From Bacteroidota bacterium (GTDB lineage: Bacteria; Bacteroidota; Bacteroidia; Bacteroidales; JAAAOM01), in contig JAAAOM010000031.1 of the NCBI GenBank assembly GCA_009908855.1, positions 62,001 through 126,000 on the forward strand: a DNA stretch of 64,000 nt, written 5' to 3'. A model generated the notes under the pieces. That model had not been told where the DNA came from, made no database searches, and saw nothing but the letters and a program-made list of their open reading frames with translations. The position numbers and the translations under genes were made by a program. Shown piece by piece: positions 3 to 13,870 of this stretch (positions are counted from its first letter, which is position 1; each line of letters opens with the position of its first letter).

Positions 3-809
3 ATTTACGCCATAAAAAGTTCATCAAATTATGATTTCACTGAATACTCCGAGAAATCATTGCGACGAAGACTTGCGAAGGTGATGCAGGATCACAACCT
101 GAATATCTCCTCATTAGTTAATAAAGTTAAGTCAGACAAAAAGTTCCTTGAGCAAATCGTGAAAGAAATTACGGTTAATACCACCGAGCTTTTTCGTGAC
201 CCCCAGGTTTGGCAAAATTTACGTTACAATATACTTCCCCGGTTTAAAAACAATTCAGTTATAAATGTATGGCATGCAGGATGCTCTACCGGACAGGAAG
301 TCTATTCCCTGATGATTTTGCTTAACGAGCTGGAAATGTTTGAGAAAACCAAAATGTATGCCACCGATTTAAACACGGATGTGTTAGAAAATGCCAATAA
401 GGGTGAATATAAATACAGGTTTAATATCGGATATTTGGATAACTTCGATAAAGTTATTAAGGAAAATCCGTATAATTATGACGAATATTATGATATCCCT
501 TATGATAAATATTTTACAATAGATAAATCAAGGGATATTATTAAAATGAATGATTTTCTGACACAAAAACCAGTTTTTAAAAAACAGGACCTGGTAAAGG
601 ATGAAAATACATTGTATGTTAAATTTGATTTGATACTTTGCAGAAATGTTATTATATATTTTAACTATAATTTACAAAACCGGGTTTTTGATTTATTTCA
701 CCGGAATTTGTACGAAGGAGGCGGACTGATTCTGGGAATGCACGAAACTATTTTGGGAAATTATTCACTCAAATATAAAAAAAGAGGACATGCTTATTTT
801 AAAGTTTAG
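3..809 (+). CDS. cheR: CheR-type protein-glutamate O-methyltransferase (5' partial)
   Basis: The open frame runs in from the left edge without a stop, so the true start lies outside the window; the first visible TTG (60) is internal. CheR transfers a methyl group from SAM to glutamates of chemoreceptor-like proteins in the cytosol. Visible are the helical N-terminal CheR domain (a run of arginines followed by the 'TELFRDPQVW' motif), then the Rossmann methyltransferase with SAM motif I 'HAGCSTGQEVYSL' and the conserved 'LCRNVIIYFN' near the C-terminus. All look intact, so an active enzyme is expected. It is followed 30 bp later by a membrane sensor and shares the block with a CheB domain and a second, degenerate CheR. 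No MCP, CheA or CheW gene is nearby, so its substrate is unlikely to be a classical chemoreceptor from this locus. Confidence 0.93.
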   Translation: MYAIKSSSNYDFTEYSEKSLRRRLAKVMQDHNLNISSLVNKVKSDKKFLEQIVKEITVNTTELFRDPQVWQNLRYNILPRFKNNSVINVWHAGCSTGQEVYSLMILLNELEMFEKTKMYATDLNTDVLENANKGEYKYRFNIGYLDNFDKVIKENPYNYDEYYDIPYDKYFTIDKSRDIIKMNDFLTQKPVFKKQDLVKDENTLYVKFDLILCRNVIIYFNYNLQNRVFDLFHRNLYEGGGLILGMHETILGNYSLKYKKRGHAYFKV

Positions 810-839
810 TGATTTTCCATTGAATTGAAGCAACTATTT

Positions 840-3455
840 ATGAAAAGTATAGCGAAATTATCAGTAAGAGGGAAATTAATATTTACTGCATTGTCAGGAA
901 CGATATTTGTTTTTGCCTTTCTGTTACTGAATAACCTTTATTTAAATTATAATGTTAAACTCAATGAAAAGGAAGAAATTCTTCAGAACCTGAAAAAAGA
1001 AGTCATTCTTCTCCAAAATGAGGAAAACGCCTATCTCACAGAATTGGTTAACAACAATGATATTTTATTCCTAAATATCGACAATCATTTGGTTAAAATA
1101 GAAAAACGGTATCAAACGGCATCCCGGTTAATCGATTCTGTACGTCTTTTTAACATATATGCTTCGGATACAATTTGGCTTGAAACACTGGATAATGTAG
1201 ATGCTTACCTGGATGAACTATATCATCAATACGAAGACCTGATTCTTAATTATAAAGAAAGAGGAACCGTACATCACAACTTAATTAAACAATGGACTAA
1301 TGCCGGTGAAGAACTGGAGTCTTTAATGTTTGAAAGTAACCAAATTCCATTAATCGCTGAAATAACCACTTTACGGAAAAATGAGAAAAACTATCTGATT
1401 TATGCTGATATTGAAACCCTTGATATCATTATTAACACCATTGAGAATATCAAAGCACTGATAAATTATGAATACCCTGAATATTCTTATAAAACCATAG
1501 AGCTGTGCGATAGATATTTAATGTTGGCCAAACAAATTGGCGCCATTAATGAACGAATAGGGATTGGTGCAAACGAAGGGTTACGCCAACAACTTACATC
1601 TTTAGCCAACATATTGGATTCTCATCTGTACGATTTATCCGAATATCAGCAGGAACAAATACAACAATACAAGAACAGAGCGTACAATGGTATGTTAATC
1701 GCTTATGGTGTATTGATACTCCTGTATTTTCTATTATTGTTTTATATCGGTAATTCCATAAACAAACCACTTTACCGCGTGAATGAATACCTTGAGCGAC
1801 TTACCAAAGGTGAACTACCCGAAAAAATAGACTGGAATATAAAAGGTGAACTCGGTATTCTTATTAACCGACTCAATCACTTTATTTTTACCTTAAAGGA
1901 AAAAAAGGATTTTGCCATTAAACTAAGTAATGGAAATCTCGAAGAATCCATCGATTTAAAAAGCCGCAAAGACATACTGGGTAAAACACTTATAAGCCTT
2001 CAAAATAATCTTAAATATGCCAATGAGGAACATGAGAAACACTTACAGGAAAATAAATTGCGACAATACATTAACGAAGGCATTAATAATATTTCCGAGG
2101 TTTTTCAATTACATAGCAACGATCTGGGTCATCTGGCCGACGAGTTTATCATACGGCTGGTGAAATACCTGGATATAGTTCAGGGTGCACTGTTTCTGAT
2201 GAACAGAGAGAAAAAAGAAACCATACTGGAATTAAAAGGTGCCTTTGCCTACGATCGTAAAAAATACCTCGAAAAGGAAATTAAATTGGGACAAGGTCTG
2301 GTAGGAACCTGCGCACTGGAGAAAAAACCTATTAAACCCAGGCATTTACCCGATGACTATATCAATATCACATCCGGACTTGGTGATAGTCCGCCCAGTC
2401 ACTTGTTTCTGGTACCCGTAATGAATGATGATGTGGTTGAAGGGGTGATTGAGCTGGCTGGTTTAAAAGAATTTGAGGACCACCAGTTGGAGCTTATCAA
2501 AACCATAGCCAATAATCTGGGCTCGGCGCTTGGCTCCATACGCGTCAATGCTCAAACAGCCGAATTACTTAAAAAATCACAGCAACAAGCCACCGAAATG
2601 TCGGAACAGGAAGAAGAAATGCGTCAGAACATGGAAGAGTTGCAGGCCACACAGGAGGAAGCCGCACGGCGAGAAGAAGAGACCAAAAATATTATGAGCG
2701 CATACCACAAAGCTGTGTTATATATGGAATATGACCTTGACGGCAAAATTGAAGAGGTAAACGATAATTATATCCGGTTGTTTAATCGCGACAAATCCAA
2801 AATTGTCGGTAAATTCCATAGCAATATTTATAACATCGATCATGAATCGGAAATTGAAAAGAAACTATGGGCCGATTTAAGAATGGGCGAGCAGCAAACC
2901 CGAATCGAGGCGTATGTTAACGATAATGGCGAAAAAAAATGGCTGTATCAGCAGTACACACCGGTTTTAAATGCCAGTAACGAAACGTACAAAGTAGTTA
3001 ATATTGCTTATGATATCACTGAACAAAAAAATAAGGAATCAGAAATTCATGCCAGAGAGCAGGAAATTAAATCGGAAAAGCGTGAATTCGAGGTTCTTAA
3101 ATACATTTTTGAACAAACCATTGCCAAAGCCGAGTTTAGCGTGGAAGGACAAATTGTAGAGCACAACAGAAACTTTGAGAAGCTTATCGGATTGGAGGCT
3201 GAAGACCTGAAAGATAAGCTGTATAATGAATATTTGAACAAAGTTGAAATTGAAAAATTTGACGGTATATGGGAACATATCCTGCAATCAAAAAGGTCAA
3301 TTTCTTCATTATTGAGAAGAACAAAACCATCAGGCGAAAATATATGGATCAGCGCAACTTTTTCGCCCGTATTTCATGAATCAAAAGACCAAATCGACAA
3401 AATAATCATGCTTGGCAGTGATATAACTGAAAATATACAACGAATTACCAGATAG
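840..3455 (+). CDS. Membrane sensor with HAMP-GAF-PAS-PAS, no output domain
   Basis: ATG 840 gives 871 residues; an in-frame TTG at 825 is possible but less likely. The order is: a basic start, TM1 (about residues 15-35), a helical extracytoplasmic sensor region (about 40-280), TM2 (about 285-305), a HAMP and a HAMP-like segment, GAF (about 420-570), a Gln/Glu-rich coiled coil with 'EEMRQNMEELQATQEE', then PAS1 (about 625-735) and PAS2 (about 750-865). No histidine kinase, GGDEF, MCP signalling hairpin or phosphatase domain follows, so it must act by protein contact or by controlling a neighbour. It lies between two CheR-like genes and upstream of CheB, which makes it a candidate methyl-accepting protein. 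That is inference. Its GAF and coil resemble those of the phosphatase encoded at 5661-8261. Confidence 0.88.
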   Translation: MKSIAKLSVRGKLIFTALSGTIFVFAFLLLNNLYLNYNVKLNEKEEILQNLKKEVILLQNEENAYLTELVNNNDILFLNIDNHLVKIEKRYQTASRLIDSVRLFNIYASDTIWLETLDNVDAYLDELYHQYEDLILNYKERGTVHHNLIKQWTNAGEELESLMFESNQIPLIAEITTLRKNEKNYLIYADIETLDIIINTIENIKALINYEYPEYSYKTIELCDRYLMLAKQIGAINERIGIGANEGLRQQLTSLANILDSHLYDLSEYQQEQIQQYKNRAYNGMLIAYGVLILLYFLLLFYIGNSINKPLYRVNEYLERLTKGELPEKIDWNIKGELGILINRLNHFIFTLKEKKDFAIKLSNGNLEESIDLKSRKDILGKTLISLQNNLKYANEEHEKHLQENKLRQYINEGINNISEVFQLHSNDLGHLADEFIIRLVKYLDIVQGALFLMNREKKETILELKGAFAYDRKKYLEKEIKLGQGLVGTCALEKKPIKPRHLPDDYINITSGLGDSPPSHLFLVPVMNDDVVEGVIELAGLKEFEDHQLELIKTIANNLGSALGSIRVNAQTAELLKKSQQQATEMSEQEEEMRQNMEELQATQEEAARREEETKNIMSAYHKAVLYMEYDLDGKIEEVNDNYIRLFNRDKSKIVGKFHSNIYNIDHESEIEKKLWADLRMGEQQTRIEAYVNDNGEKKWLYQQYTPVLNASNETYKVVNIAYDITEQKNKESEIHAREQEIKSEKREFEVLKYIFEQTIAKAEFSVEGQIVEHNRNFEKLIGLEAEDLKDKLYNEYLNKVEIEKFDGIWEHILQSKRSISSLLRRTKPSGENIWISATFSPVFHESKDQIDKIIMLGSDITENIQRITR

Positions 3456-3459
3456 GCTT

Positions 3460-4296
3460 ATGATTGAGTTAAGCGTTGTTGATACAAGAACAATTTGCAG
3501 AATAGTGCAGGAAAAGCATCAGTTTGATCTTTCCGGATTTGCACATACATCTCTCAAATACAGGCTTGCCAAACTAATGGCCCAGTATAAAATTCAGGAG
3601 CTTGATATCTTGTTGGCCAAAATTGGACAGGATGATGGATTTTTCGATTCCTTTTTGCATGATTTGTTGGTTCCGTCCACCGAAATGTTCAGAGACCCTT
3701 CCCTGTGGAGATGGCTAAAGGAAGGATATTTTCCTTCCATCAAAGATAAAATGACCGGTAATTATAAAATATGGCTGCCATTGTGTGTTGACGGATATGA
3801 ACTACATACCCTCACCATTGTGTTAAAAGAATTGGAATTGCTCGATAAAGTAAAGATTATTGCAGGTGTACTTACCAATAAAAGCAAAGAAGTAATTGAG
3901 GAAGGTATTTTACCCCTTAAAAAATACGAGATCAGCGCTGAAAATTATAAGAGATACCAGGGACAGGCAAATTTTGATGACTATGTAGCAAAACACGATT
4001 ATTATGTGGTTCGCGACAGGTCTTTAATAAAGAATGTACAGTTTATCAAACAAAATAATCTTTTTGATCATGCCCCCGGTAATGTAAAACTGATTTTATT
4101 CAGGAATCACTGTATCTATTTCAACCCGTCTATGCAGGAAAGGGTATTGGTAGAATTGCATCATAACCTTTCTGCAACCGGATTATTCATTATCGGTGCA
4201 AAAGAAAAGATTAAAAATATTGAATCAAGTGATACTTATGATTTAATTGATGAAGGAGAAAGCGTTTATAAAAAAAAATTCGTAAGTAAAAGTTAA
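3460..4296 (+). CDS. Degenerate CheR-like protein, probably inactive methyltransferase
   Basis: The 278-residue protein follows the CheR plan along its whole length: helical N-domain, 'STEMFRDPSLW', a Rossmann-like core, and 'LFRNHCIYFN' where active CheR has 'LCRNVIIYFN'. The SAM-binding loop is eroded: residues 104-114 read 'IWLPLCVDGYE', whereas the upstream paralogue has 'VWHAGCSTGQE'. The Gly-x-Gly turn and the small residues that hold SAM are lost. It starts 4 bp after the sensor gene and ends 1 bp before cheB, so it is kept in a tight operon and is not a decaying pseudogene; the frame is intact. A likely role is receptor binding or a decoy or regulator of the active CheR. Loss of catalysis is inferred from the motif only. 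Confidence 0.82.
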   Translation: MIELSVVDTRTICRIVQEKHQFDLSGFAHTSLKYRLAKLMAQYKIQELDILLAKIGQDDGFFDSFLHDLLVPSTEMFRDPSLWRWLKEGYFPSIKDKMTGNYKIWLPLCVDGYELHTLTIVLKELELLDKVKIIAGVLTNKSKEVIEEGILPLKKYEISAENYKRYQGQANFDDYVAKHDYYVVRDRSLIKNVQFIKQNNLFDHAPGNVKLILFRNHCIYFNPSMQERVLVELHHNLSATGLFIIGAKEKIKNIESSDTYDLIDEGESVYKKKFVSKS

Positions 4297-4297
4297 C

Positions 4298-4867
4298 ATG
4301 TCGACTTATAAAGCAGTAATAATAGGCGGATCAGCCGGTAGTTTTCAGGTAGTAACTAAAATTCTTAGTTCCATACCTACCGGTTTTCCTTTGCCCATAC
4401 TTTTATGTTTACACCGTTTAAAACATGTTCGATCAGGATTTGTGGAAGCATTGTCCTTAAAATCAAATATTCCGGTTATTGAACCCAATGATAAGGATTC
4501 CTTAAAACCCGGCATTGCCTATCTGGCCCCGGCCAATTACCACATGTATGTTGAACTGGCAAACCGGATTGCCTTATCAACCGATGATCCTGTAAACCAT
4601 TCGCGTCCGGCCATTGATCTGTCATTTATTACAGCCGCCAACGCTTACCGCCAAAAATTAATCGGCATCATTTTATCAGGAGCCAATCGCGACGGTGCCA
4701 TGGGACTTAAAAAGGTGCATGAACACGGCGGAACGACTATCGTTCAGGACCCGGCTGAATGTGAGGTTAAAACCATGACGGAAGCATCATTACAGATTAC
4801 ACAGGTGAATTACGTTTATCGATCCGATGAGATCATTAATTTTTTAAAAAAATCAGTTAGATCATGA
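4298..4867 (+). CDS. cheB: Stand-alone CheB-type protein-glutamate methylesterase domain
   Basis: CheB methylesterases remove methyl groups from receptor glutamates and can deamidate glutamines. The 189 residues are a methylesterase domain only. The catalytic triad is visible: Ser12 in 'IIGGSAGS', His39 in 'LCLHR' and Asp132 in 'ILSGANRDGAMG'. The N-terminal receiver domain of classical CheB is absent, so the enzyme is not switched on by CheA phosphotransfer; activity must be constitutive or set by a binding partner. The stop overlaps the next start as ATGA (4864-4867), and the start is 1 bp after the preceding stop, suggesting translational coupling within the signalling operon. Single-domain CheB proteins are known next to CheR in Bacteroidota. 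Confidence 0.93.
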   Translation: MSTYKAVIIGGSAGSFQVVTKILSSIPTGFPLPILLCLHRLKHVRSGFVEALSLKSNIPVIEPNDKDSLKPGIAYLAPANYHMYVELANRIALSTDDPVNHSRPAIDLSFITAANAYRQKLIGIILSGANRDGAMGLKKVHEHGGTTIVQDPAECEVKTMTEASLQITQVNYVYRSDEIINFLKKSVRS

Positions 4868-5643
4868 ATTTGCCAAATAAATATCGCAACATCGGATTAA
4901 TAATATTGATTGTTATGATCCTGATATTATTGATTTCCGTTGCTATGGTACGGAACATCATAATGACAGGCGGAATAGAAGGAAAAGGGTTGGTGTATAT
5001 ACTACTGAGTTTTGCCATAGCAGGCGTATTTTTGTTGTATTTAATAATTTTACGGCTCACTGGTTGGGAAATAAAAAATTATTTTATCGCCGAATATAAT
5101 GCTGAAAAAAATGAAACCGAAGAGGAAGAAAAAGTAGAAGAAGTTCAGGAACAAACCGATGAAAAGATATTAACTTTAGAAGAGCTTGAACGTAACATTT
5201 TCCCGCAAAAGAAGTTTAAATACCTCGACAGTTATGCTGAAAAATTACTCATTAACCTGGGTAAGTTTATGGAAATTAGTCAGGGTGTTTTTTACAGGTT
5301 GGATGATAATTCGGGAAAATTCAGGCTAATAGCTAAATATGCTACTGCCGTTGAAAAGGAAGCAGAAGAAATTGGGCCGGGTGAAGGATTAACAGGACAA
5401 GTGGCAATCGACAAAAAAATGAATATTATTGACGAAGTGCCTGAAAACTATTTACAAATTGTATCCGGTCTGGGCAAAGGACAACCCGCACAGCTGGTTA
5501 TCGTACCCATACTTAAAAATAATGAAGTGTCGGCTATCATGGAGCTTGCTTCACTTAAAAAGTTTAGCGATAGTTTTTTATCATTGCTTCCTGATTTAGC
5601 CAATAATTTAGGTAAGCAAATAGATAATTTTGAATTGAGATAG
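4864..5643 (+). CDS. Membrane-anchored GAF-domain protein
   Basis: The protein has 259 residues with two N-terminal membrane helices (about 9-30 and 42-64). A Glu-rich, probably coiled linker follows (about 75-110, with 'TEEEEKVEEVQEQ'), then a single GAF domain (about 120-255). There is no catalytic output. The GAF shares signatures with those of the upstream sensor and the downstream phosphatase: a 'QGV/QGA' strand, a 'G-x-GL-x-G' turn, an 'I-x-SGL' element and a 'VPI' strand. It therefore looks like a stripped-down paralogue that could hetero-oligomerise with them. Translation is probably coupled to cheB through the 4-bp overlap. Its ligand is unknown. A membrane adaptor role is inferred from architecture alone. 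Confidence 0.8.
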   Translation: MNLPNKYRNIGLIILIVMILILLISVAMVRNIIMTGGIEGKGLVYILLSFAIAGVFLLYLIILRLTGWEIKNYFIAEYNAEKNETEEEEKVEEVQEQTDEKILTLEELERNIFPQKKFKYLDSYAEKLLINLGKFMEISQGVFYRLDDNSGKFRLIAKYATAVEKEAEEIGPGEGLTGQVAIDKKMNIIDEVPENYLQIVSGLGKGQPAQLVIVPILKNNEVSAIMELASLKKFSDSFLSLLPDLANNLGKQIDNFELR

Positions 5644-5660: not shown

Positions 5661-8261
5661 ATGTTTAAGAAAATAACAGATATCATTAAGAATAATACCA
5701 TCATTTATGGTTTTGTAATAGGTTTGCCTATTCCCATTTTAGGATGGATTCTTGATTTTGTAAGCAGTAAGGAACCCGTTACCTTTTCCTATTTCATAGG
5801 TCTTTACTCCGAAAACCTGCTGCACTGGATGTTGCTGATTTTCCCGTTTGCCCTTTCTGCCCTTTATTACCGCCAAGCCAACAGCAAAGAAAATTTAATT
5901 GAGGAATACAATACCGAAATAACCAAAACCGAAAAACGCATCGAAGAAACCGCCAGATTTGCTAAAGAAATCGGTGAAGGTAATTTCGATTCCGAGCTTC
6001 AGGTTGAAAAAGAAGATGCGCTGACCCAGTCGTTGCTGTTAATGCGCGATAATTTAGCTGAGAATAGCCGTCGCGAAGCCGAACAAAGCTGGATTGCAGC
6101 CGGAAAAGACAAGATATCAAACATCCTGCGATTGCACACAAAAATTGATGAGCTTTGCTATGAAGTCCTGGTAGCATTGGTTGATTACATTGAAGTAACC
6201 CAGGGTGCTATCTATTTATATTCCGAAGAAAATAAAAAACTGGAAAACAAAGCTACTTATGCCTATAATCGCCGTAAATACATTGAGCAGGAGTTTGAGG
6301 TAGGGCATGGCCTTATTGGTCAATGTGCTTATGAAATGGACTATGTTTACCGTACCGAAATACCCGAGGGATATGTTTCAATAACATCCGGTATATTAGG
6401 TGATAAAAAACCATCAAGCATTTTATTGGTGCCATTAACCAGCGATGAAAAACTGCAAGGTGTACTGGAATTTGCATCCATCGAAATCATTCCTGATAAC
6501 ACCATTGTTCTGCTCAAAGAACTGGGGGAAATTATTGCCCGTACCATTTTCAACCTTCAGATAAATGCCCGTACAGAGCAATTGCTAAAGGAATCGCAGG
6601 AGATGACTACTGAACTTCAGGAGAATGAAGAGGAACTCAGACAAAATGCGGAGGAAATGCGGGCAACGCAGGATGAGCTAAGAAAATCAAATGAACAGCT
6701 TGAGAAACAATTTCAGGAAGTTGAAAATGCTCAAAAAAGACTGTATTCGCTACTTGAAAATGCCTCTGAGGTTATTGCCATTTATGACGAGGATATGGTC
6801 ATGAAATATGTCAGCCCGTCAGTAGAGAAAATTCTGGGATTTGAACCCGAGGAAATGATGTCGGGAAAAGATATGGACCGCCTTACACGCAAAGGAGAAT
6901 CCGCCTTGCGTAATATGTTTAAAGAATTACTGAACAGCCCTGACGAAGTACAGTCCATTCAGTATACCTACATGAAAAAAGACGGGCACAAAATATTCCT
7001 GGAAACAACCGGTCGCAACCTCTTAGAAGACCCTGCAATACAGGGAATAATTCTCAACTCCAGGGATATCACCGAGCGCAAACGTGCCGAGAAAGAGGAG
7101 CGAATGAAAAGTAAAATGCAGGCTCTGTCAGAGAACTCACTCGATATGATCCTGCGTCTGAGTACGGTGGGCCAGTTCTTCTATGCAAACCCGGTGGTGG
7201 AGGACTACTTCAACATTTCGGCCAAAGAGATCATCAATAAAACACTGAACGAAATAGTAATTCACGAAGTATTCTTTAACTACTTTAAAGAAACCATCGA
7301 GGAAATAAAAGCCAAACCCTCGAAACACAACAAAGAAATAAATGTGCCGCTTAAATACGGTGAGAAAGAAACACACCGGATCATGAGCATTGATGCCATC
7401 CCTGAATTTAACGAAAATGAGTTGGAAACCATTTTATTTGTGGGGCATGATATTACCGAAGCCAAACGAATTGAAATGGAGATTCAGGAGAAAAACAAAA
7501 AGATCGAAGACTCCATCAACTACGCACAACGAATTCAAACATCCATATTGCCCAACAATGCCGTAATTCGCGATGTGTTCCCGAAATCATTCATTTTTTA
7601 CAAACCACGTGATGTGGTAAGTGGTGACTTCCCGTGGTTCTTTAAAAGAGGAGAAAATATTTACATTGCCGCGGTTGATTGTACCGGGCATGGTGTGCCT
7701 GGTGCATTGCTGTCGTTCATTGGATACTTTATTCTCAATAATATTGTTGACCATGACAAGGAACAAACAGCCGCACAGGTATGCGATGCTTTGCATTATG
7801 GTGTACGCACAACATTGCGTCAGGACAGGGCCGATGCTAATCAACGCGATGGTATGGACATTGCCCTGTGTAAGATAAATCCTTCAAAGAATGAATTACA
7901 GTACGCCGGCGCACATCGCCCGTTGTACTATTTATCAAAGGGTGAGTTGGAAGAGTTCAAAGGAAACAGGAAAGCAATTGGTGGTATCCCTCACCGAAAA
8001 AAGCCGGAAAAAGATTTTGAAAATTATGTTATAAATTACAAGCCCGGAGATAAAGTATTTTTCTTTTCTGATGGTTTACCCGACCAATTAGGTGGCCCGG
8101 AAATGAAAAAATATTCTCCGAAAAGAATACGCGAAACCATTTTGGAAAATGAAAATTACTCGATGCAGGAGTATAATGATCATTTTGCAAAAGATTTTGT
8201 AAACTGGAAAGGAGACACCAAACAAATTGATGATGTCTTGCTAATTGGAATAGAATTTTAG
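5661..8261 (+). CDS. Membrane GAF-PAS-PAS-SpoIIE (PP2C) serine/threonine phosphatase, SiaA-like
   Basis: The protein has 866 residues: two membrane helices (about 13-32 and 47-70), a HAMP-like helical segment (about 75-150), GAF (about 165-305), a coiled coil with 'EEELRQNAEEMRATQDE', PAS1 (about 370-480), PAS2 (about 490-600), and a SpoIIE-type PP2C phosphatase from about residue 618 ('SINYAQRIQTSILP'). Metal-ligand motifs are present: 'SGDFPWF', 'AVDCTGHGVPGA', 'DGMDIALC', 'FFSDGLPDQ' and 'DDVLLIGI'. Most relatives have GDFYW or GDFFW, so the proline is unusual. The SiaB and SiaC genes follow at once, so the expected job is that of Pseudomonas SiaA: dephosphorylating SiaC in response to a signal. 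Here the sensing module is GAF/PAS instead of the usual periplasmic sensor. Confidence 0.9.
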   Translation: MFKKITDIIKNNTIIYGFVIGLPIPILGWILDFVSSKEPVTFSYFIGLYSENLLHWMLLIFPFALSALYYRQANSKENLIEEYNTEITKTEKRIEETARFAKEIGEGNFDSELQVEKEDALTQSLLLMRDNLAENSRREAEQSWIAAGKDKISNILRLHTKIDELCYEVLVALVDYIEVTQGAIYLYSEENKKLENKATYAYNRRKYIEQEFEVGHGLIGQCAYEMDYVYRTEIPEGYVSITSGILGDKKPSSILLVPLTSDEKLQGVLEFASIEIIPDNTIVLLKELGEIIARTIFNLQINARTEQLLKESQEMTTELQENEEELRQNAEEMRATQDELRKSNEQLEKQFQEVENAQKRLYSLLENASEVIAIYDEDMVMKYVSPSVEKILGFEPEEMMSGKDMDRLTRKGESALRNMFKELLNSPDEVQSIQYTYMKKDGHKIFLETTGRNLLEDPAIQGIILNSRDITERKRAEKEERMKSKMQALSENSLDMILRLSTVGQFFYANPVVEDYFNISAKEIINKTLNEIVIHEVFFNYFKETIEEIKAKPSKHNKEINVPLKYGEKETHRIMSIDAIPEFNENELETILFVGHDITEAKRIEMEIQEKNKKIEDSINYAQRIQTSILPNNAVIRDVFPKSFIFYKPRDVVSGDFPWFFKRGENIYIAAVDCTGHGVPGALLSFIGYFILNNIVDHDKEQTAAQVCDALHYGVRTTLRQDRADANQRDGMDIALCKINPSKNELQYAGAHRPLYYLSKGELEEFKGNRKAIGGIPHRKKPEKDFENYVINYKPGDKVFFFSDGLPDQLGGPEMKKYSPKRIRETILENENYSMQEYNDHFAKDFVNWKGDTKQIDDVLLIGIEF

Positions 8262-8302: not shown

Positions 8303-8896
8303 ATGGGCAAAGAGAAAGATGTGAAAGGATTTCTGGAATTTGTTTACGAATTCTACAAATCCATGAAAGCACACGAAATTACATTGGTGTACGAGGGCGA
8401 AATAACGCACCAAATCACCAAAGCTTTTACCTCGCTTGCTGAATCAAACATGGCGAAGGAAGATGAAGCAGGTACTGTACAACGAAAAGTATTTCATGTA
8501 ATGGTCGAATGTTTACAAAATATTAGTAAACATGCCGATGATTTTACGTCTAACGATTATCTTTTCTCCGGAAGAGGTATATTTTTAGTTAGTAAAGGGG
8601 AAAATGAATACAGCATCACAACCGGCAATGCCGTGGAAAATGACCGTATAGAAGAATTGACCACCATGCTGGAAGACATTAACCGAATGGATAAGGATGC
8701 GTTAAAAGATCTTTACAAACGCCAAATTAAAGAAGGGCGATTGTCCGAAAAAGGAGGTGCCGGCCTCGGCTTTATCGATATTAAACGTAAAACCGGGAAG
8801 GAGCTTGAATACCATTTCCTGCCCATTTCGGATAACACTTCATTCTTTTTATTAACTTCGACAATTTCCCGCGAACTAAATTCACAACAAGATTAA
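8303..8896 (+). CDS. siaB: SiaB family protein kinase (DUF6272)
   Basis: The 197-residue soluble protein has a divergent GHKL-type ATP-binding fold. The N-box is visible as 'HVMVECLQNISKHA' and the glycine-rich lid as 'EKGGAGLGFIDIKRKTG'. In Pseudomonas aeruginosa SiaB phosphorylates SiaC, opposing the phosphatase SiaA. The gene sits between a SpoIIE phosphatase and a SiaC homologue, and ends 1 bp before the siaC start, exactly the context expected for a partner-switching set. No sensor domain is present, so input must enter through the phosphatase. The family assignment rests on these boxes plus gene order. Confidence 0.87.
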   Translation: MGKEKDVKGFLEFVYEFYKSMKAHEITLVYEGEITHQITKAFTSLAESNMAKEDEAGTVQRKVFHVMVECLQNISKHADDFTSNDYLFSGRGIFLVSKGENEYSITTGNAVENDRIEELTTMLEDINRMDKDALKDLYKRQIKEGRLSEKGGAGLGFIDIKRKTGKELEYHFLPISDNTSFFLLTSTISRELNSQQD

Positions 8897-8897
8897 T

Positions 8898-9278
8898 ATG
8901 GAAGCAATAAAAATTCAAGGAACAGAGGACACACCTAAAATTATTTTGGATGCGGATAACGATTTCTTTGAAATTTCAGGTCGTTCATTGCCGGAAGATG
9001 TAACATCCTTTTACGAACCGGTTATCAATTGGTTGGACGAATATGCCGAAAGTCCGAAAGATAAAACGGTTTTTAATTTCAAACTGGTATATTTCAATAC
9101 AGCTTCCTCGAAATTATTACTCGATATTTTAATGAAGTTGGAAGAAATACACGAAAATGGTAATGACGTGCTCATACGTTGGCATTATCCCGAAGAAGAC
9201 GAAGATATGCAGGAAGCGGGCGAAGAATATGCCGATATTGTTGATGTACCATTTGAACAGGTAGGTTACCCGGGATAA
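8898..9278 (+). CDS. siaC: SiaC family regulatory phosphoprotein (DUF1987)
   Basis: This small acidic cytosolic protein (126 residues) belongs to the SiaC/DUF1987 family, the phospho-switch of the SiaABC system. The family hallmark 'KLVYFNTASSKLLLDI' is present. By direct count its threonine is residue 68, the same number as the phosphorylated Thr68 of P. aeruginosa SiaC. In Pseudomonas, unphosphorylated SiaC binds and activates the diguanylate cyclase SiaD. No GGDEF gene occurs in this window, and the next gene (54 bp on) encodes an ABC transporter with TerB and FHA-like domains. The partner here may therefore differ; that is inference. The start follows siaB by 1 bp. Confidence 0.92.
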   Translation: MEAIKIQGTEDTPKIILDADNDFFEISGRSLPEDVTSFYEPVINWLDEYAESPKDKTVFNFKLVYFNTASSKLLLDILMKLEEIHENGNDVLIRWHYPEEDEDMQEAGEEYADIVDVPFEQVGYPG

Positions 9279-9332: not shown

Positions 9333-12300
9333 ATGAGTGAAGAAATTCTTAGAGCCCTCATGCAACTTTTTGCGATCATCGCCAAACAGGATGAAGGCGT
9401 TGAATCGAACCAGGTAGAATATGTCCATAACTTTCTTACCCAGCAATTGGGGGATGAAGAAGTACAGGAATATTTTACTCTTTTCAAAAAGCAGGCAGGA
9501 TTTGATGAAGATGAGGAAGAAGAAACAGATGATAAGGGGGAAAAGAAAAAGAAAAGGCTAACATCCGTAAAGGAGTCAGTGAAGGTATTGGGAATATGTA
9601 AAAAGATTAATAAAACCCTTACCCAGAAACAAAAAATCGTTGTGTTGGTGAGGCTGTTTGAAATTGTTAATACCGACCGTAAATTTACCGAACAACGTAT
9701 GGCCATTATCAATACGGTGGCCGAGGTATTTAACATTCTAAAAGAAGAGTTTGAAGCTACACGACAATTCGTGATCAACAATGACCCCGCCCAACTGGAT
9801 GATCCTAATTTGCTCGTAATTAATGATAACGATGAACCCTTTGGTCAATGCAAAAGAATTAAAACCAAAGAGCTAGACGCCCATATATTTATTCTGCGCA
9901 TTAAAAGTGTTGATCTGTACTTCTTAAAATATACCGGTCATGAAGACCTGTTCCTGAACGGATTACCAGTCAATAATTCACGTATTTATCTGTTTGCCAA
10001 CGGGAGTACCATTAAACTCCCTAAAGGACGGCCCATTTATTATAGTGACATCGCCGGTCGATTCCTGGCTGATATGTCTGCCAGTAAAATTTCGTACGAC
10101 TGCAAGAACGTATTTTTTCAATTTCCCAATGGTAACATCGGACTCAGGGATATCAGTTTTTCGGAAGGCCATGGCCGTTTAATAGGTATTATGGGAGCCA
10201 GTGGAGCCGGCAAAACTACCCTGTTGAATGTATTGTGCGGTATTGAAAAGCCATCCGATGGACAGGTGCTGATCAATGGTCTCAATCTGCACACCGAAAA
10301 AGATAAACTCGAAGGGGTGATCGGTTACATCCCACAGGATGACCTGCTGATTGAAGAATTAACCGTATTTCAAAATTTATACTACAATGCCAAACTTTGC
10401 TTCAAAGACAAAAGCGAAGAAGAAATAACCCAATTGGTTAATAAAACCTTATCAAATTTAGGTTTGATAGACCGTAAAGATCTGAAGGTTGGATCACCGT
10501 TAAACAAATTTATCAGCGGCGGCCAGCGTAAACGTTTGAATATTGCGCTCGAGTTAATCAGGGAACCCTCCATACTGTTTGTGGATGAGCCAACATCCGG
10601 ACTCTCATCGCGTGATTCGGAAAATGTAATGGACCTGCTGCGTGAACTTACCCTGAAAGGCAAACTGATATTTGTGGTCATTCACCAACCATCATCAGAG
10701 ATTTACAAAATGTTTGATAAAATGATCATCCTCGATACCGGTGGATACCTGGTTTATTATGGCAACCCGGTTGAAGGAGTGATGTATTTCAAACGCCTGG
10801 ATATGCAGATTAACAGTGATGTAGGTGAATGCCCTACCTGCGGTAATGTTAATCCCGAACTTATTTTTAATATAATCGAGGCTAAAGTGGTGGACGAGTA
10901 CGGAAATTTAACCGATCACCGTAAGGTATCACCTCCCAAATGGGAATCGTATTTTAAAGATAATCTCGAAATCGATGAAGCCGAGCAGATTGATGATCCA
11001 CCGCCAAAATCATTAAATATTCCCAACTGGCTTAAACAGTTTAACATTTATACCATACGCGATTTTCTGTCGAAAGTAAGCAATCGGCAGTATATCGCCT
11101 TAAACCTGCTGGAAGCACCTATACTTGGTTTTATATTATCATTTATCATCCGCTATATTGCCGATCCCGAATCGAACATTTACATATTCAGGGAGAACGA
11201 AAATATACATATATACATTTTTATGTCATTGATTGTTGCCTTGTTCCTGGGTTTAACGGTCAGTGCCGAAGAGATTTTCAGAGACCGGAAAATTCTTAAA
11301 CGCGAATCGTTTTTGAATCTCAGCCGGTCAAGTTATTTACTGTCAAAAGTATTGCTGTTATTTACAATTTCAGCCATACAGGCCATAACTTTTATCCTGA
11401 TTGCCAATACTATATTGGGCATCAAAGGTATGACCTTTAATTACTGGTTTGCCCTGTTCAGTACGGCAGCCTTTGCCAATATGCTGGGACTTAATGTGTC
11501 GGCATCATTTAATTCGGCGGTTACCATTTACATCATTATTCCGTTATTAATGATCCCGATGATGATTTTAAGCGGTGCCATGTTCCCGTTCGATAAACTC
11601 AATCGTTCCATCAGCTCGGTAGGCAAAGTACCGCTCATTGCCGAGATAATGGTAACCAAATGGTCGTATGAGGCTTTAATGGTTCATCAATTCAAAAGCA
11701 ATAAGTTTAATAAAAAGTTTTATCCGGTTGATAAAGTAGAAGTTGAAACGGATTTTAAAAAAGTATATTTCCTGCCTGAGATGAACCAGCGACTGGACAA
11801 AGTAATTGCTGAATTGGCTGAAAATGGCCAGGTGGAAGAAACTGCTGCTGACCTGGAATTAATTCGCAATGAAATTCGTAAAGAAATGCGTTTGGTGCCA
11901 CAGGTTGAATTTGACATGATGGACCAGTTAACACCCGGGAATTTCTCCAGGAATGTAGCCCGCAAAGTAAGGGAATACTTTAAAAAACTGGATCAGCATT
12001 ACAGTCAGGAGTTCCAAATCGCCAATAAGAAAAAGGAAAATATGATCAATTTCTATATGGAACGAGATCCTGAACTGTTCAAATCAATGCGAAATACATA
12101 CCACAACGAGGGAATTGAAGACATTGTGCGTAAAATTTATGAGAAAAATAAAATCGTTGAATATGAAAATGAGCTTATTCAGCAAATTGAACCCATTTAC
12201 CTGGACCCATTGCCCGATCATCAATTTGAATTCAGGTCACATTTTCTGGCTCCGCAGAAACATTTCCTGGGTGTTTATTTTGATACCTACTGGTTTAATT

Positions 12301-12410
12301 TATGTGTGATATGGCTGTTCACCCTTATCCTTTATGTGAGTTTGTATTACGAATGGCTTAAAAAGCTATTGAATATAAATTTTAGCATCAGATTGAAAGG
12401 GAAAAAATAA
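9333..12410 (+). CDS. TerB / FHA-like / ABCG-type ABC transporter fusion
   Basis: The protein has 1025 residues. The N-terminus (about 1-140) is a helical TerB-like domain with a charged loop. Residues about 165-245 form a beta-rich segment resembling a degenerate FHA domain ('LFLNGLPV' then 'LFANGSTIKLPKG'). An ABC ATPase follows (about 255-480) with Walker A 'GASGAGKTT' (about 288), signature 'SGGQRKR' (about 395) and Walker B 'ILFVDEPTSG'. The C-terminal half holds an ABC2-type membrane domain (about 585-790), a soluble acidic insert and a last membrane helix near the C-terminus. Order and fusion resemble ABCG half-transporters and the FHA-ABC protein Rv1747 of Mycobacterium. It follows siaC in the same direction, so control of transport by the Sia switch is plausible. 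The substrate is unknown. Confidence 0.88.
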   Translation: MSEEILRALMQLFAIIAKQDEGVESNQVEYVHNFLTQQLGDEEVQEYFTLFKKQAGFDEDEEEETDDKGEKKKKRLTSVKESVKVLGICKKINKTLTQKQKIVVLVRLFEIVNTDRKFTEQRMAIINTVAEVFNILKEEFEATRQFVINNDPAQLDDPNLLVINDNDEPFGQCKRIKTKELDAHIFILRIKSVDLYFLKYTGHEDLFLNGLPVNNSRIYLFANGSTIKLPKGRPIYYSDIAGRFLADMSASKISYDCKNVFFQFPNGNIGLRDISFSEGHGRLIGIMGASGAGKTTLLNVLCGIEKPSDGQVLINGLNLHTEKDKLEGVIGYIPQDDLLIEELTVFQNLYYNAKLCFKDKSEEEITQLVNKTLSNLGLIDRKDLKVGSPLNKFISGGQRKRLNIALELIREPSILFVDEPTSGLSSRDSENVMDLLRELTLKGKLIFVVIHQPSSEIYKMFDKMIILDTGGYLVYYGNPVEGVMYFKRLDMQINSDVGECPTCGNVNPELIFNIIEAKVVDEYGNLTDHRKVSPPKWESYFKDNLEIDEAEQIDDPPPKSLNIPNWLKQFNIYTIRDFLSKVSNRQYIALNLLEAPILGFILSFIIRYIADPESNIYIFRENENIHIYIFMSLIVALFLGLTVSAEEIFRDRKILKRESFLNLSRSSYLLSKVLLLFTISAIQAITFILIANTILGIKGMTFNYWFALFSTAAFANMLGLNVSASFNSAVTIYIIIPLLMIPMMILSGAMFPFDKLNRSISSVGKVPLIAEIMVTKWSYEALMVHQFKSNKFNKKFYPVDKVEVETDFKKVYFLPEMNQRLDKVIAELAENGQVEETAADLELIRNEIRKEMRLVPQVEFDMMDQLTPGNFSRNVARKVREYFKKLDQHYSQEFQIANKKKENMINFYMERDPELFKSMRNTYHNEGIEDIVRKIYEKNKIVEYENELIQQIEPIYLDPLPDHQFEFRSHFLAPQKHFLGVYFDTYWFNLCVIWLFTLILYVSLYYEWLKKLLNINFSIRLKGKK

Positions 12411-12478: not shown

Positions 12479-13396
12479 ATGAGTGCAATTATGTATAAAA
12501 AAATACCGTATATCCTGTTGGTCATTTTGTTCGCTTTTTCCTGTAAGTCGGGGCAGGAAAGTGGAGGAGAATTTGGTGAGGTACCCGATTCAGTATTAAG
12601 CGAAGGCTTACTGGAAATAAATGAAGATGTGATGCAGGATATTGTACAGAATATATCCTCGCCCGTGGAAATGGCCGCATTATTAAAAAGTTTGGGCGTT
12701 CCTTTTTCAAGCGAATATTTAGCACCTACCGACAAAGTGGACAATCTTACAACCAGCTTTAAGCAGGCTTTTAATCTGGGTGTTTACGGCGCCGATCTGG
12801 GATACCTGAATATGTACAACAAAACCAATGCAGTATTGGATTATATACAGGCCATTAAAGTACTTTCGGATGCAATTAGGGTAGGACAATTTTTTGACTT
12901 TAACACATTAAAACGGCTGGCCACCAACAATACCAATCTCGATTCGTTGATGTACATCTCCGTGCATAGTTTTAACCAAATGGATAAATATTTACGGAGC
13001 AATAAGCGCAGTAATTTAAGTACACTAATTCTTACCGGTGTATGGATTGAAGGATTGTATCTGGCCACCCAGGTAGCCAAAGAAGAGGATAATGCCGACC
13101 TGAAAGAACGCATTGGTGAACAAAAATTAATTCTTGAAAAATTAATTATTGTGTTGGAAAATTTCAGCAGAGATACCAATTTCGCTAATTTGGTTGCCGA
13201 TTTTAAAGATTTGCAAGAAACATTTGAACCTGTGGAGATATCTTATGTTAAGGGTGAACCCGAAGCCATTGAAGAAGACGGCATGTTGATAATTGTACAA
13301 AATGAAAAAAGTGTAGTAGATATTTCTGACGATACACTTACAGAGATTATCGATAAAACCGAGGAGTTAAGAAATAAACTCATTAGTGCTATCTAA
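12479..13396 (+). CDS. Predicted lipoprotein of unknown function
   Basis: The protein has 305 residues (from ATG 12479; ATG 12491 is an alternative that keeps the signal). It starts with a lipoprotein signal peptide ending in the lipobox 'FAFSC', so it should be lipidated on the periplasmic side. The remainder is mostly helical and acidic, without a domain I can name. It is the tenth gene of the signalling block, 68 bp after the ABC transporter, and precedes a small secreted protein with no terminator between. It could be the periplasmic or outer-membrane partner of that transporter; this is inferred from position only. Confidence 0.8.
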   Translation: MSAIMYKKIPYILLVILFAFSCKSGQESGGEFGEVPDSVLSEGLLEINEDVMQDIVQNISSPVEMAALLKSLGVPFSSEYLAPTDKVDNLTTSFKQAFNLGVYGADLGYLNMYNKTNAVLDYIQAIKVLSDAIRVGQFFDFNTLKRLATNNTNLDSLMYISVHSFNQMDKYLRSNKRSNLSTLILTGVWIEGLYLATQVAKEEDNADLKERIGEQKLILEKLIIVLENFSRDTNFANLVADFKDLQETFEPVEISYVKGEPEAIEEDGMLIIVQNEKSVVDISDDTLTEIIDKTEELRNKLISAI

Positions 13397-13429: not shown

Positions 13430-13870
13430 ATGAAAAAAATATGCTATATACTCACGCTCTTTTTCTTTACTACTGTGCTTGTTAAAGCCCAGGGTACAGA
13501 CATTTTGGTAGCTCAGTGCGCGGCAAGTGCCGGTGAAAATGTAACCTACTTAAAAGATTTCGTTGTTGAGCTTGAAGCGGCTACAGCAGGCGAAAAACCG
13601 CCTCAAGCCAAATTTTCAATGGTTTTAAGTAAAAATACCATGTACCGATTTACGATTTGTACAGCTCCTGATTCCGAAGGTGAAGCCATCATCCAGTTGT
13701 ATGATATGAATACACTGTTGGGCAGTTCATTTATCATGGCCACCGGTAAAAGCTATCCGGGATTTAATTTCAAATGTCAAAAAACGGGTGTGTACCATGT
13801 ATTTATTTCTATTAAAGATGGTAAACCAGGTAGAGCAGTGGGAATATTATCGTTTGTTGAAAAACTTTAG
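13430..13870 (+). CDS. Small secreted beta-sandwich-like protein
   Basis: The protein has 146 residues with a cleavable signal peptide (cleavage probably after 'VLVKAQ'). The mature part is rich in beta-strand-forming segments and resembles small pre-peptidase-like sandwich domains ('MYRFTICTAPDSEGEAIIQLYD', shortened here as 'MYRFTICTAPDSEG'), with three cysteines. No catalytic motif is seen. It is the last gene before a strong terminator, 33 bp after the lipoprotein gene, so it probably belongs to the same transcription unit. Function is unknown. Confidence 0.78.
   Translation: MKKICYILTLFFFTTVLVKAQGTDILVAQCAASAGENVTYLKDFVVELEAATAGEKPPQAKFSMVLSKNTMYRFTICTAPDSEGEAIIQLYDMNTLLGSSFIMATGKSYPGFNFKCQKTGVYHVFISIKDGKPGRAVGILSFVEKL

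Follow-up and report, generated by a model that had tools for sequence, protein, structure and literature searches.

SiaABC has been studied as a biofilm switch acting through c-di-GMP, and, to our knowledge, only a few ABC transporters are controlled by a small STAS-like protein, MlaB being one such protein. In the extracts of PMC8457831 used here, SiaC of Pseudomonas is related to STAS domains, its unphosphorylated form binds the helical stalks of SiaD, phosphorylation of T68 prevents target binding, and SiaC-type proteins are suggested to act commonly on the product of the adjacent gene; Thr68 of SiaC also appears in the extract of PMC7647112. According to the extract of PMC7367683, a paper whose title concerns ABC transporter regulation, MlaB is a STAS protein that forms part of the MlaFEDB ABC transporter. 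The corresponding extract of PMC5549992 gives FHA I of the mycobacterial exporter Rv1747 as having all residues for phosphothreonine (pThr) binding, namely Gly, Arg, Ser, His and Asn.

The window, i.e. the whole stretch of 64,000 nucleotides that was analysed, holds a locus that shares features with each of these systems. As far as the extracts describe them, the Pseudomonas aeruginosa SiaABCD genes (PMC7647112, PMC8457831) likewise combine a PP2C phosphatase, a kinase and a Thr68 phosphoprotein in one operon, directly followed by the presumed target gene; in the window, however, the next gene encodes an ABC transporter instead of SiaD, and SiaA carries GAF/PAS domains. As in MlaFB, from the Mla system for lipid transport (PMC7367683, extract), a small STAS protein would belong to the cytoplasmic part of an ABC transporter, but here kinase and phosphatase genes accompany the STAS-like protein, which is a phosphoprotein, and additional domains stand at the N-terminus of the transporter. 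With Rv1747, again in the part of PMC5549992 available, it shares a cytoplasmic FHA fold ahead of an ABC ATPase-membrane protein and the involvement of a phosphorylation system, whereas the window's transporter has one FHA domain devoid of the pThr residues, a TerB domain in addition, and an adjoining kinase of the SiaB type. The families of the parts and the SiaABC switch are already known; coupling of this switch to a TerB-FHA exporter and a lipoprotein was not found in the titles and abstract starts of the open-licence papers searched.

Structure of the transporter

The transporter is encoded by a single open reading frame, present and open in the window, with the following parts:

9333..12410, + strand: TerB-FHA-ABCG-type transporter, 1025 aa (open reading frame, Pfam, AlphaFold2, fold searches)
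9333..9776, + strand: TerB domain, residues 1-148, the putative SiaC-docking part (Pfam, AlphaFold2 helices, VIA Z)
9801..10067, + strand: FHA domain in degenerate form (residues 157-245), without a conserved pThr site (AlphaFold2, Foldseek, VIA, residue counts)
10095..10802, + strand: ABC ATPase domain, residues 255-490, in which the Walker A, signature and Walker B motifs are all preserved (Pfam, motif conservation)
11091..12359, + strand: membrane domain, into which a variable stretch of ~215 aa is inserted (ABC2_membrane, hydropathy)

As in ABCG half-transporters, the ATPase precedes the membrane domain and the ABC motifs are complete. Pfam placed ABC_tran at residues 271-422 and ABC2_membrane at residues 569-787, both above cut-off, in agreement with the earlier note, in which an ABCG-type transporter had been read behind the N-terminal domains. 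The catalytic motif residues of the ATPase are kept in 80-81 of the 81 aligned proteins, and 50% of the positions of this domain are at least 90% identical. Hydropathy segments were located between residues 587 and 754 and at 985-1009, five to six in total, the standard used for comparison being the six TM helices and dimer of an ABCG half-transporter. The insert (residues 765-980) precedes the last hydrophobic segment, varies between the aligned proteins (identity reaches 90% or more at 8% of its positions) and is probably periplasmic, the membrane side being that of the ABCG topology, which we take to apply here. Eukaryotic ABCG transporters likewise have the ATPase ahead of the membrane domain, and the best solved matches were fungal CDR1 (E 2.6e-45, over the ATPase part) and human ABCG1 (E 3.1e-40, over residues 270-757); compared with them, the window's transporter adds the TerB-FHA front end and the insert.

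Between the ATPase and the membrane domain a CxxCGNVNPE-like motif was observed (window 10830-10859, residues 500-509), with both Cys kept in 81/81 proteins; it presumably occupies the position of the CPxxYNPAD-like motif of ABCG proteins.

The predicted TerB domain and degenerate FHA fold of the front end are both well supported by the AlphaFold2 model and the fold searches, TerB also by Pfam. The Pfam TerB model matched residues 8-145 with 29.6 bits (cut-off 24.4) and was found in all 78 aligned N-termini (best E 3.6e-12, with a permissive E limit of 10). The AlphaFold2 model of residues 1-255, for which the 78-row alignment served as input, had a pLDDT of 88.0 and a pTM of 0.84 and consisted of seven helices (residues 3-148) followed by a beta domain. 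The two best VIA-align rows, a second look at the hits of Foldseek, were 2h5n (Z 9.4), which carries no functional assignment in its deposition and which we take to be TerB-like, and 2ou3 (Z 7.9), a COG3793 tellurite-resistance protein. TerB was more conserved than FHA: among 81 proteins, identity reached 90% or more at 23% of the TerB positions and at 9% of those in FHA. A TerB-like N-terminal domain had been claimed in the earlier note, which also proposed structure prediction for residues 1-250; Pfam, the model and the fold search confirm the claim, and the model gave TerB helices together with an FHA fold.

FHA domain and phosphothreonine site

The Pfam FHA model gave no match in the transporter at E ≤ 1, and the assignment comes from structure and profile comparison. 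The best Foldseek hit of the front-end model was the FHA domain of MEK1 (5yyz), with probability 1.00 and E 0.016, and no hit of this model fell below E 0.001. From rank 3 down, 31 of the 48 VIA rows have titles that name FHA (Z 7.5 to 6.1, values below 8 being by the tool's own note a possible common arrangement when taken by themselves); other rows, such as Rad53, EmbR and OdhI, are presumably FHA proteins too. The sole PDB sequence match of the front-end profile was again the MEK1 FHA domain (E 0.19, weak alone). The FHA-like character and its degeneracy had both been noticed beforehand, and these comparisons agree with them.

The residues that contact phosphothreonine are not conserved. 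The stretch SLNGTYLNG of MEK1 aligns with GHEDLFLNG of the transporter, in which the second Asn-Gly is kept (N209 in 78/78, G210 in 72/78) and the first is not; among the 78 rows, 'GR' was found in one within the segment expected to contain it, 'SxxH' in five and 'NGT' in one. The window's genome as a whole had no match to the Pfam FHA model, which also misses these degenerate domains themselves. The suggestion that FHA reads a phosphothreonine of SiaC, as in Rv1747, thus finds no support, because the pocket residues are not conserved and the unphosphorylated SiaC is the binding form in Pseudomonas, a logic opposite to that of an FHA-pThr switch. Reading of pThr by FHA was therefore rejected, with the contact residues lost and T68 phosphorylation blocking SiaC binding in Pseudomonas. 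An Rv1747-like switch of this kind, in which FHA binds the phosphothreonine of SiaC or of another protein and so gates the exporter, would be in line with the FHA fold, with the threonine phosphoprotein encoded next door and with a positive partial correlation between SiaC and FHA (+0.23, see below), but the Arg, Ser, His and NGT-Asn of the pocket, present in Rv1747 FHA I in the extract at hand, are not conserved, and Thr68 phosphorylation prevents partner binding in the system described in the extract of PMC8457831; we hold it to be very improbable.

Switch genes and gene order

The genes around the transporter are as follows:

3460..5643, + strand: CheR, CheB (methylesterase domain only) and a GAF membrane protein, upstream of SiaA (Pfam)
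5661..8261, + strand: SiaA-like PP2C phosphatase that carries a GAF and two PAS domains and retains its metal-site motifs (SpoIIE, E 1e-17)
8303..8896, + strand: SiaB-family kinase (NF038262, 173.8 bits, cut-off 85; DUF6272)
8898..9278, + strand: SiaC phosphoprotein with Thr68 (9099-9101) in YFNTASS (PF09345, E 7.5e-43)
12479..13396, + strand: lipoprotein accompanying the transporter, 305 aa with Cys22 (Pfam gave no family above cut-off)
13430..13870, + strand: small protein with a signal-like start, 146 aa (N-terminus; no Pfam family)

SiaC with Thr68, SiaB and a PP2C-type SiaA lie in one gene run, which by sequence corresponds to a putative SiaABC switch. The SiaA model NF038263 matched residues 602-864 with 171 bits, below its cut-off of 700, and the equivalog cut-offs of the Pseudomonas SiaA, SiaB and SiaC models were not reached. 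The DCTGHG motif of SiaA is kept in 46/46 aligned proteins, Glu69 and Asn73 of SiaB in 50/50, and Thr68 in 52 of the 53 operon-linked SiaC.

Upstream, window 60-5643 encodes a CheR, a HAMP-GAF-PAS protein, a second CheR, a CheB methylesterase domain lacking the receiver and a GAF protein, and these genes run on the same strand into siaABC. It is possible that the CheR, CheB and GAF genes at 3460..5643 are the input part of the same gene run. Within the best 80 of 578 loci, homologues of CheR and of CheB were each found upstream in 31 of the 41 linked loci whose flank extends to 9 kb or more. A Bacteroidota promoter motif had two matches in the window, fewer than expected by chance, and none in the transporter operon; counts of sigma-70 matches (70, with 54.3 expected, sd 7.0) and of terminators (9, with 12.0 expected) in the window were not used.

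The scan for related loci was based on the best 80 of 578 confirmed stretches, with a best-segment identity of 49-69%; by record title, 75 are from Bacteroidota, four from Chlorobi/Chlorobiota and one from Planktophila. Named species with the operon include Anaerophaga thermohalophila DSM 12881 (L078) and Flexithrix dorotheae DSM 6795 (L076). Gene-order counts refer to the 64, 70 or 72 of these 80 loci with enough flank. Among the 64 with more than 4.5 kb upstream, SiaC was present on the same strand within 6 kb in 47, SiaB in 46 and SiaA in 45, all three together in 45. From stop to stop, the open frames of SiaC and the transporter are separated by a median of 49 bp (n=52). The neighbouring set of kinase, phosphatase and phosphoprotein pointed out in the earlier note is thus real, and more firmly attached to the transporter than could be known from the window.

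Downstream, 54 of the 72 loci with more than 1.9 kb (best 80 of 578) have a lipoprotein homologue within 3 kb on the same strand, and 53 of the 72 a homologue of the small protein within the same distance. A lipobox-like start was found, with a loose pattern, in 71/72 lipoproteins, and Cys22 is 98% conserved. The AlphaFold2 model of the lipoprotein (pLDDT 87) gave no convincing fold match (best Foldseek E 0.47, best VIA Z 8.0). The small protein, with no Pfam hit at E ≤ 1, is likely secreted, to judge from its N-terminus; the small proteins beside P0001 and beside the transporter of L014 look alike by eye, and BLAST gave no match between them (E 0.63).

Paralogues and two kinds of pairing

The window's genome has four such transporters, and its three full-length paralogues align over residues 1-1015 or more. 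One of them, L013, is convergent to its own SiaB-SiaC pair, with no PP2C gene nearby. The other two, L014 and L015, keep the front end and adjoin a homologue of the lipoprotein, and no SiaC lies on their contigs.

The same two arrangements appear in the order sample (149 genomes, the window's own included). SiaC is directly upstream of at least 39 transporter genes in at least 39 genomes, and convergent beside at least 24 other genes in at least 24 genomes, with both pairings in at least 18 genomes; the chance expectation of adjacency is roughly 0.4% per gene. These counts are lower bounds, taken from 148 transporter rows of the order sample, two further transporter rows and 150 SiaC rows, two transporter rows with short open frames being omitted. 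Among the 44 best-scoring front ends of the order sample at least 39 have SiaC directly upstream, and none with the convergent pairing is within these 44 among the matches listed. In a tree built by a quick method, all 52 operon-linked proteins of the alignment fall in one group of 66 (SH-aLRT 100), which includes several members without adjacent SiaC; the full-length alignment omits L059 and L075, which matched only in part, and L063, whose frame is interrupted by an early stop.

Co-occurrence of the front end and SiaC

In the order sample, 62 genomes have the front end, 63 have SiaC, 57 have both and 81 neither, so that SiaC is present in 57/62 genomes with the front end against 6/87 without it (Fisher p 4e-28, kinship ignored). 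Wherever the best front-end match reaches 1.1e-49 or better (57 genomes), SiaC is present; the best matches of the five front-end genomes lacking it are weaker (3.3e-48 to 7.8e-27). In the phylum sample (118 genomes) three have the front end and five SiaC, including all three. SiaC occurs without the front end in 6 of the 63 SiaC genomes of the order and in two of the five of the phylum. Transporter-bearing genomes were also selected on purpose, 24 in all, of which 18 were counted without adjacent SiaC and six with it; SiaC was found in 23 of the 24, in what is a non-random sample with completeness not given. As far as the flanks show, 17 of the 18 unlinked loci have SiaC only elsewhere in the genome, and the genome of L083 (completeness not given) keeps the transporter with no SiaC match.

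The window's genome has 13 SiaC copies and 5 SiaB, and up to 21 SiaC were counted in other genomes of the order. Of these 13 SiaC genes, ten lack an immediately adjacent SiaB gene, and position 68 is Thr or Ser in 12 and Cys in one. Eleven of the 13 are on contigs without any of the four transporters, and SiaC therefore has other partners. A GGDEF match was not found in this genome (90% complete), so that a diguanylate cyclase SiaD as in SiaABCD was not detected and SiaC needs another output, for which the next gene is the natural candidate.

Proposed mechanism and alternatives

Going beyond what was observed (the genes and their domains, catalytic residues that are conserved, a pThr site that is lost, a conserved gene order and co-occurrence), we infer a direct contact of SiaC with the transporter, docking at TerB, a sign for the regulation and transport in the direction of export. 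A SiaABC partner switch with an ABC exporter as output, whose front end would be bound by unphosphorylated SiaC, more likely at TerB than at FHA, appears to us rather probable. SiaB would phosphorylate SiaC on Thr68, and SiaA would remove the phosphate once its GAF/PAS part, perhaps fed by the upstream CheR/CheB and HAMP/GAF proteins, detects a signal. The unphosphorylated SiaC would then bind the front end, in which the degenerate FHA would serve as a scaffold independently of phosphate, and change the ATPase activity or the dimer arrangement of the transporter, which, through its insert, would work together with the neighbouring lipoprotein and the small secreted protein. Binding of unphosphorylated SiaC to the helical TerB is favoured because of the binding of SiaC to the helices of SiaD, the suggested action on the product of the adjacent gene and the precedent of MlaB. 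With the exporter beside the switch in many Bacteroidota, the switch may turn it on or off directly.

Comparisons of divergence were made for this docking. In a partial mirror-tree of 43 loci, the correlation was -0.13 for SiaC with TerB and +0.23 for SiaC with FHA, which leans slightly against the preference for TerB, and the distances of TerB correlated most with the sensor part of SiaA (0.45). Ten transporters of the linked clade without detected adjacent SiaC, four of which (L039, L042, L044 and L061) have less than 4.5 kb upstream, had lost 3/63 conserved positions in the N-terminal part and 5/228 elsewhere (p 0.38); a ratio test on the same ten leaned weakly the other way (1.33 vs 0.93, p 0.045). 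Compared with linked proteins, those four show more change at conserved positions, in the TerB and FHA parts as well as in the ATPase and membrane parts. Among more distant paralogues, the differences from the linked set are concentrated in the N-terminus (17/63 vs 14/228 conserved positions, p 1.7e-5), which may be just a faster divergence of the N-terminus.

The absence of a docking signal in the mirror-tree and loss-of-linkage comparisons would suit a simple co-expression, in which the target of SiaC would be some other protein and the N-terminal domains would have a role in assembly or in coupling to the lipoprotein. The same-strand gene run, the 11/13 SiaC genes located away from such transporters and the two lipoprotein-flanked paralogues that keep the front end with no SiaC on their contigs point in the same direction. 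However, at least 24 transporter genes have an adjacent, convergent SiaC, and such pairs are therefore hardly co-transcribed; the strong co-occurrence of the front end and SiaC also argues against co-expression only, which we consider unlikely.

The correlation of TerB, after partialling, with the sensor part of SiaA would be in line with a transporter that acts as the sensor, its TerB/FHA part controlling SiaA or SiaB and the transport state being reported to a SiaC output located elsewhere in the cell. Pairs of a transporter and a sensor are generally known, and the many SiaC without a SiaB neighbour are possible outputs. On the other hand, SiaA has its own GAF/PAS domains, and the convergent pair of the window's genome is SiaB-SiaC with no PP2C gene nearby; we give little credence to the transporter as sensor.

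A switch tied to an exporter in a genome without a detected GGDEF protein offers a ready candidate output in Bacteroidota, and phosphorylation-dependent, STAS-like control of an ABC transporter could be examined with purified parts. The wider proposal, that a phospho-switched STAS-like protein directly gates an ABC exporter via TerB in both the operon and the convergent pairings, so that SiaC, present in up to 21 copies per genome, would be a general plug-in regulator in Bacteroidota and act on envelope export in place of c-di-GMP, is one for which we see about equal chances of being right or wrong.

Additional observations at related loci

A response regulator gene (L014, 9964-11112) is divergent from the third paralogue; its C-terminal part resembles a degenerate PP2C by eye, and Pfam confirms the receiver domain only. 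At three loci (L065, L067 and L069), another SiaB-SiaC pair lies ~4 kb beyond the transporter in the downstream direction, encoded on the other strand.
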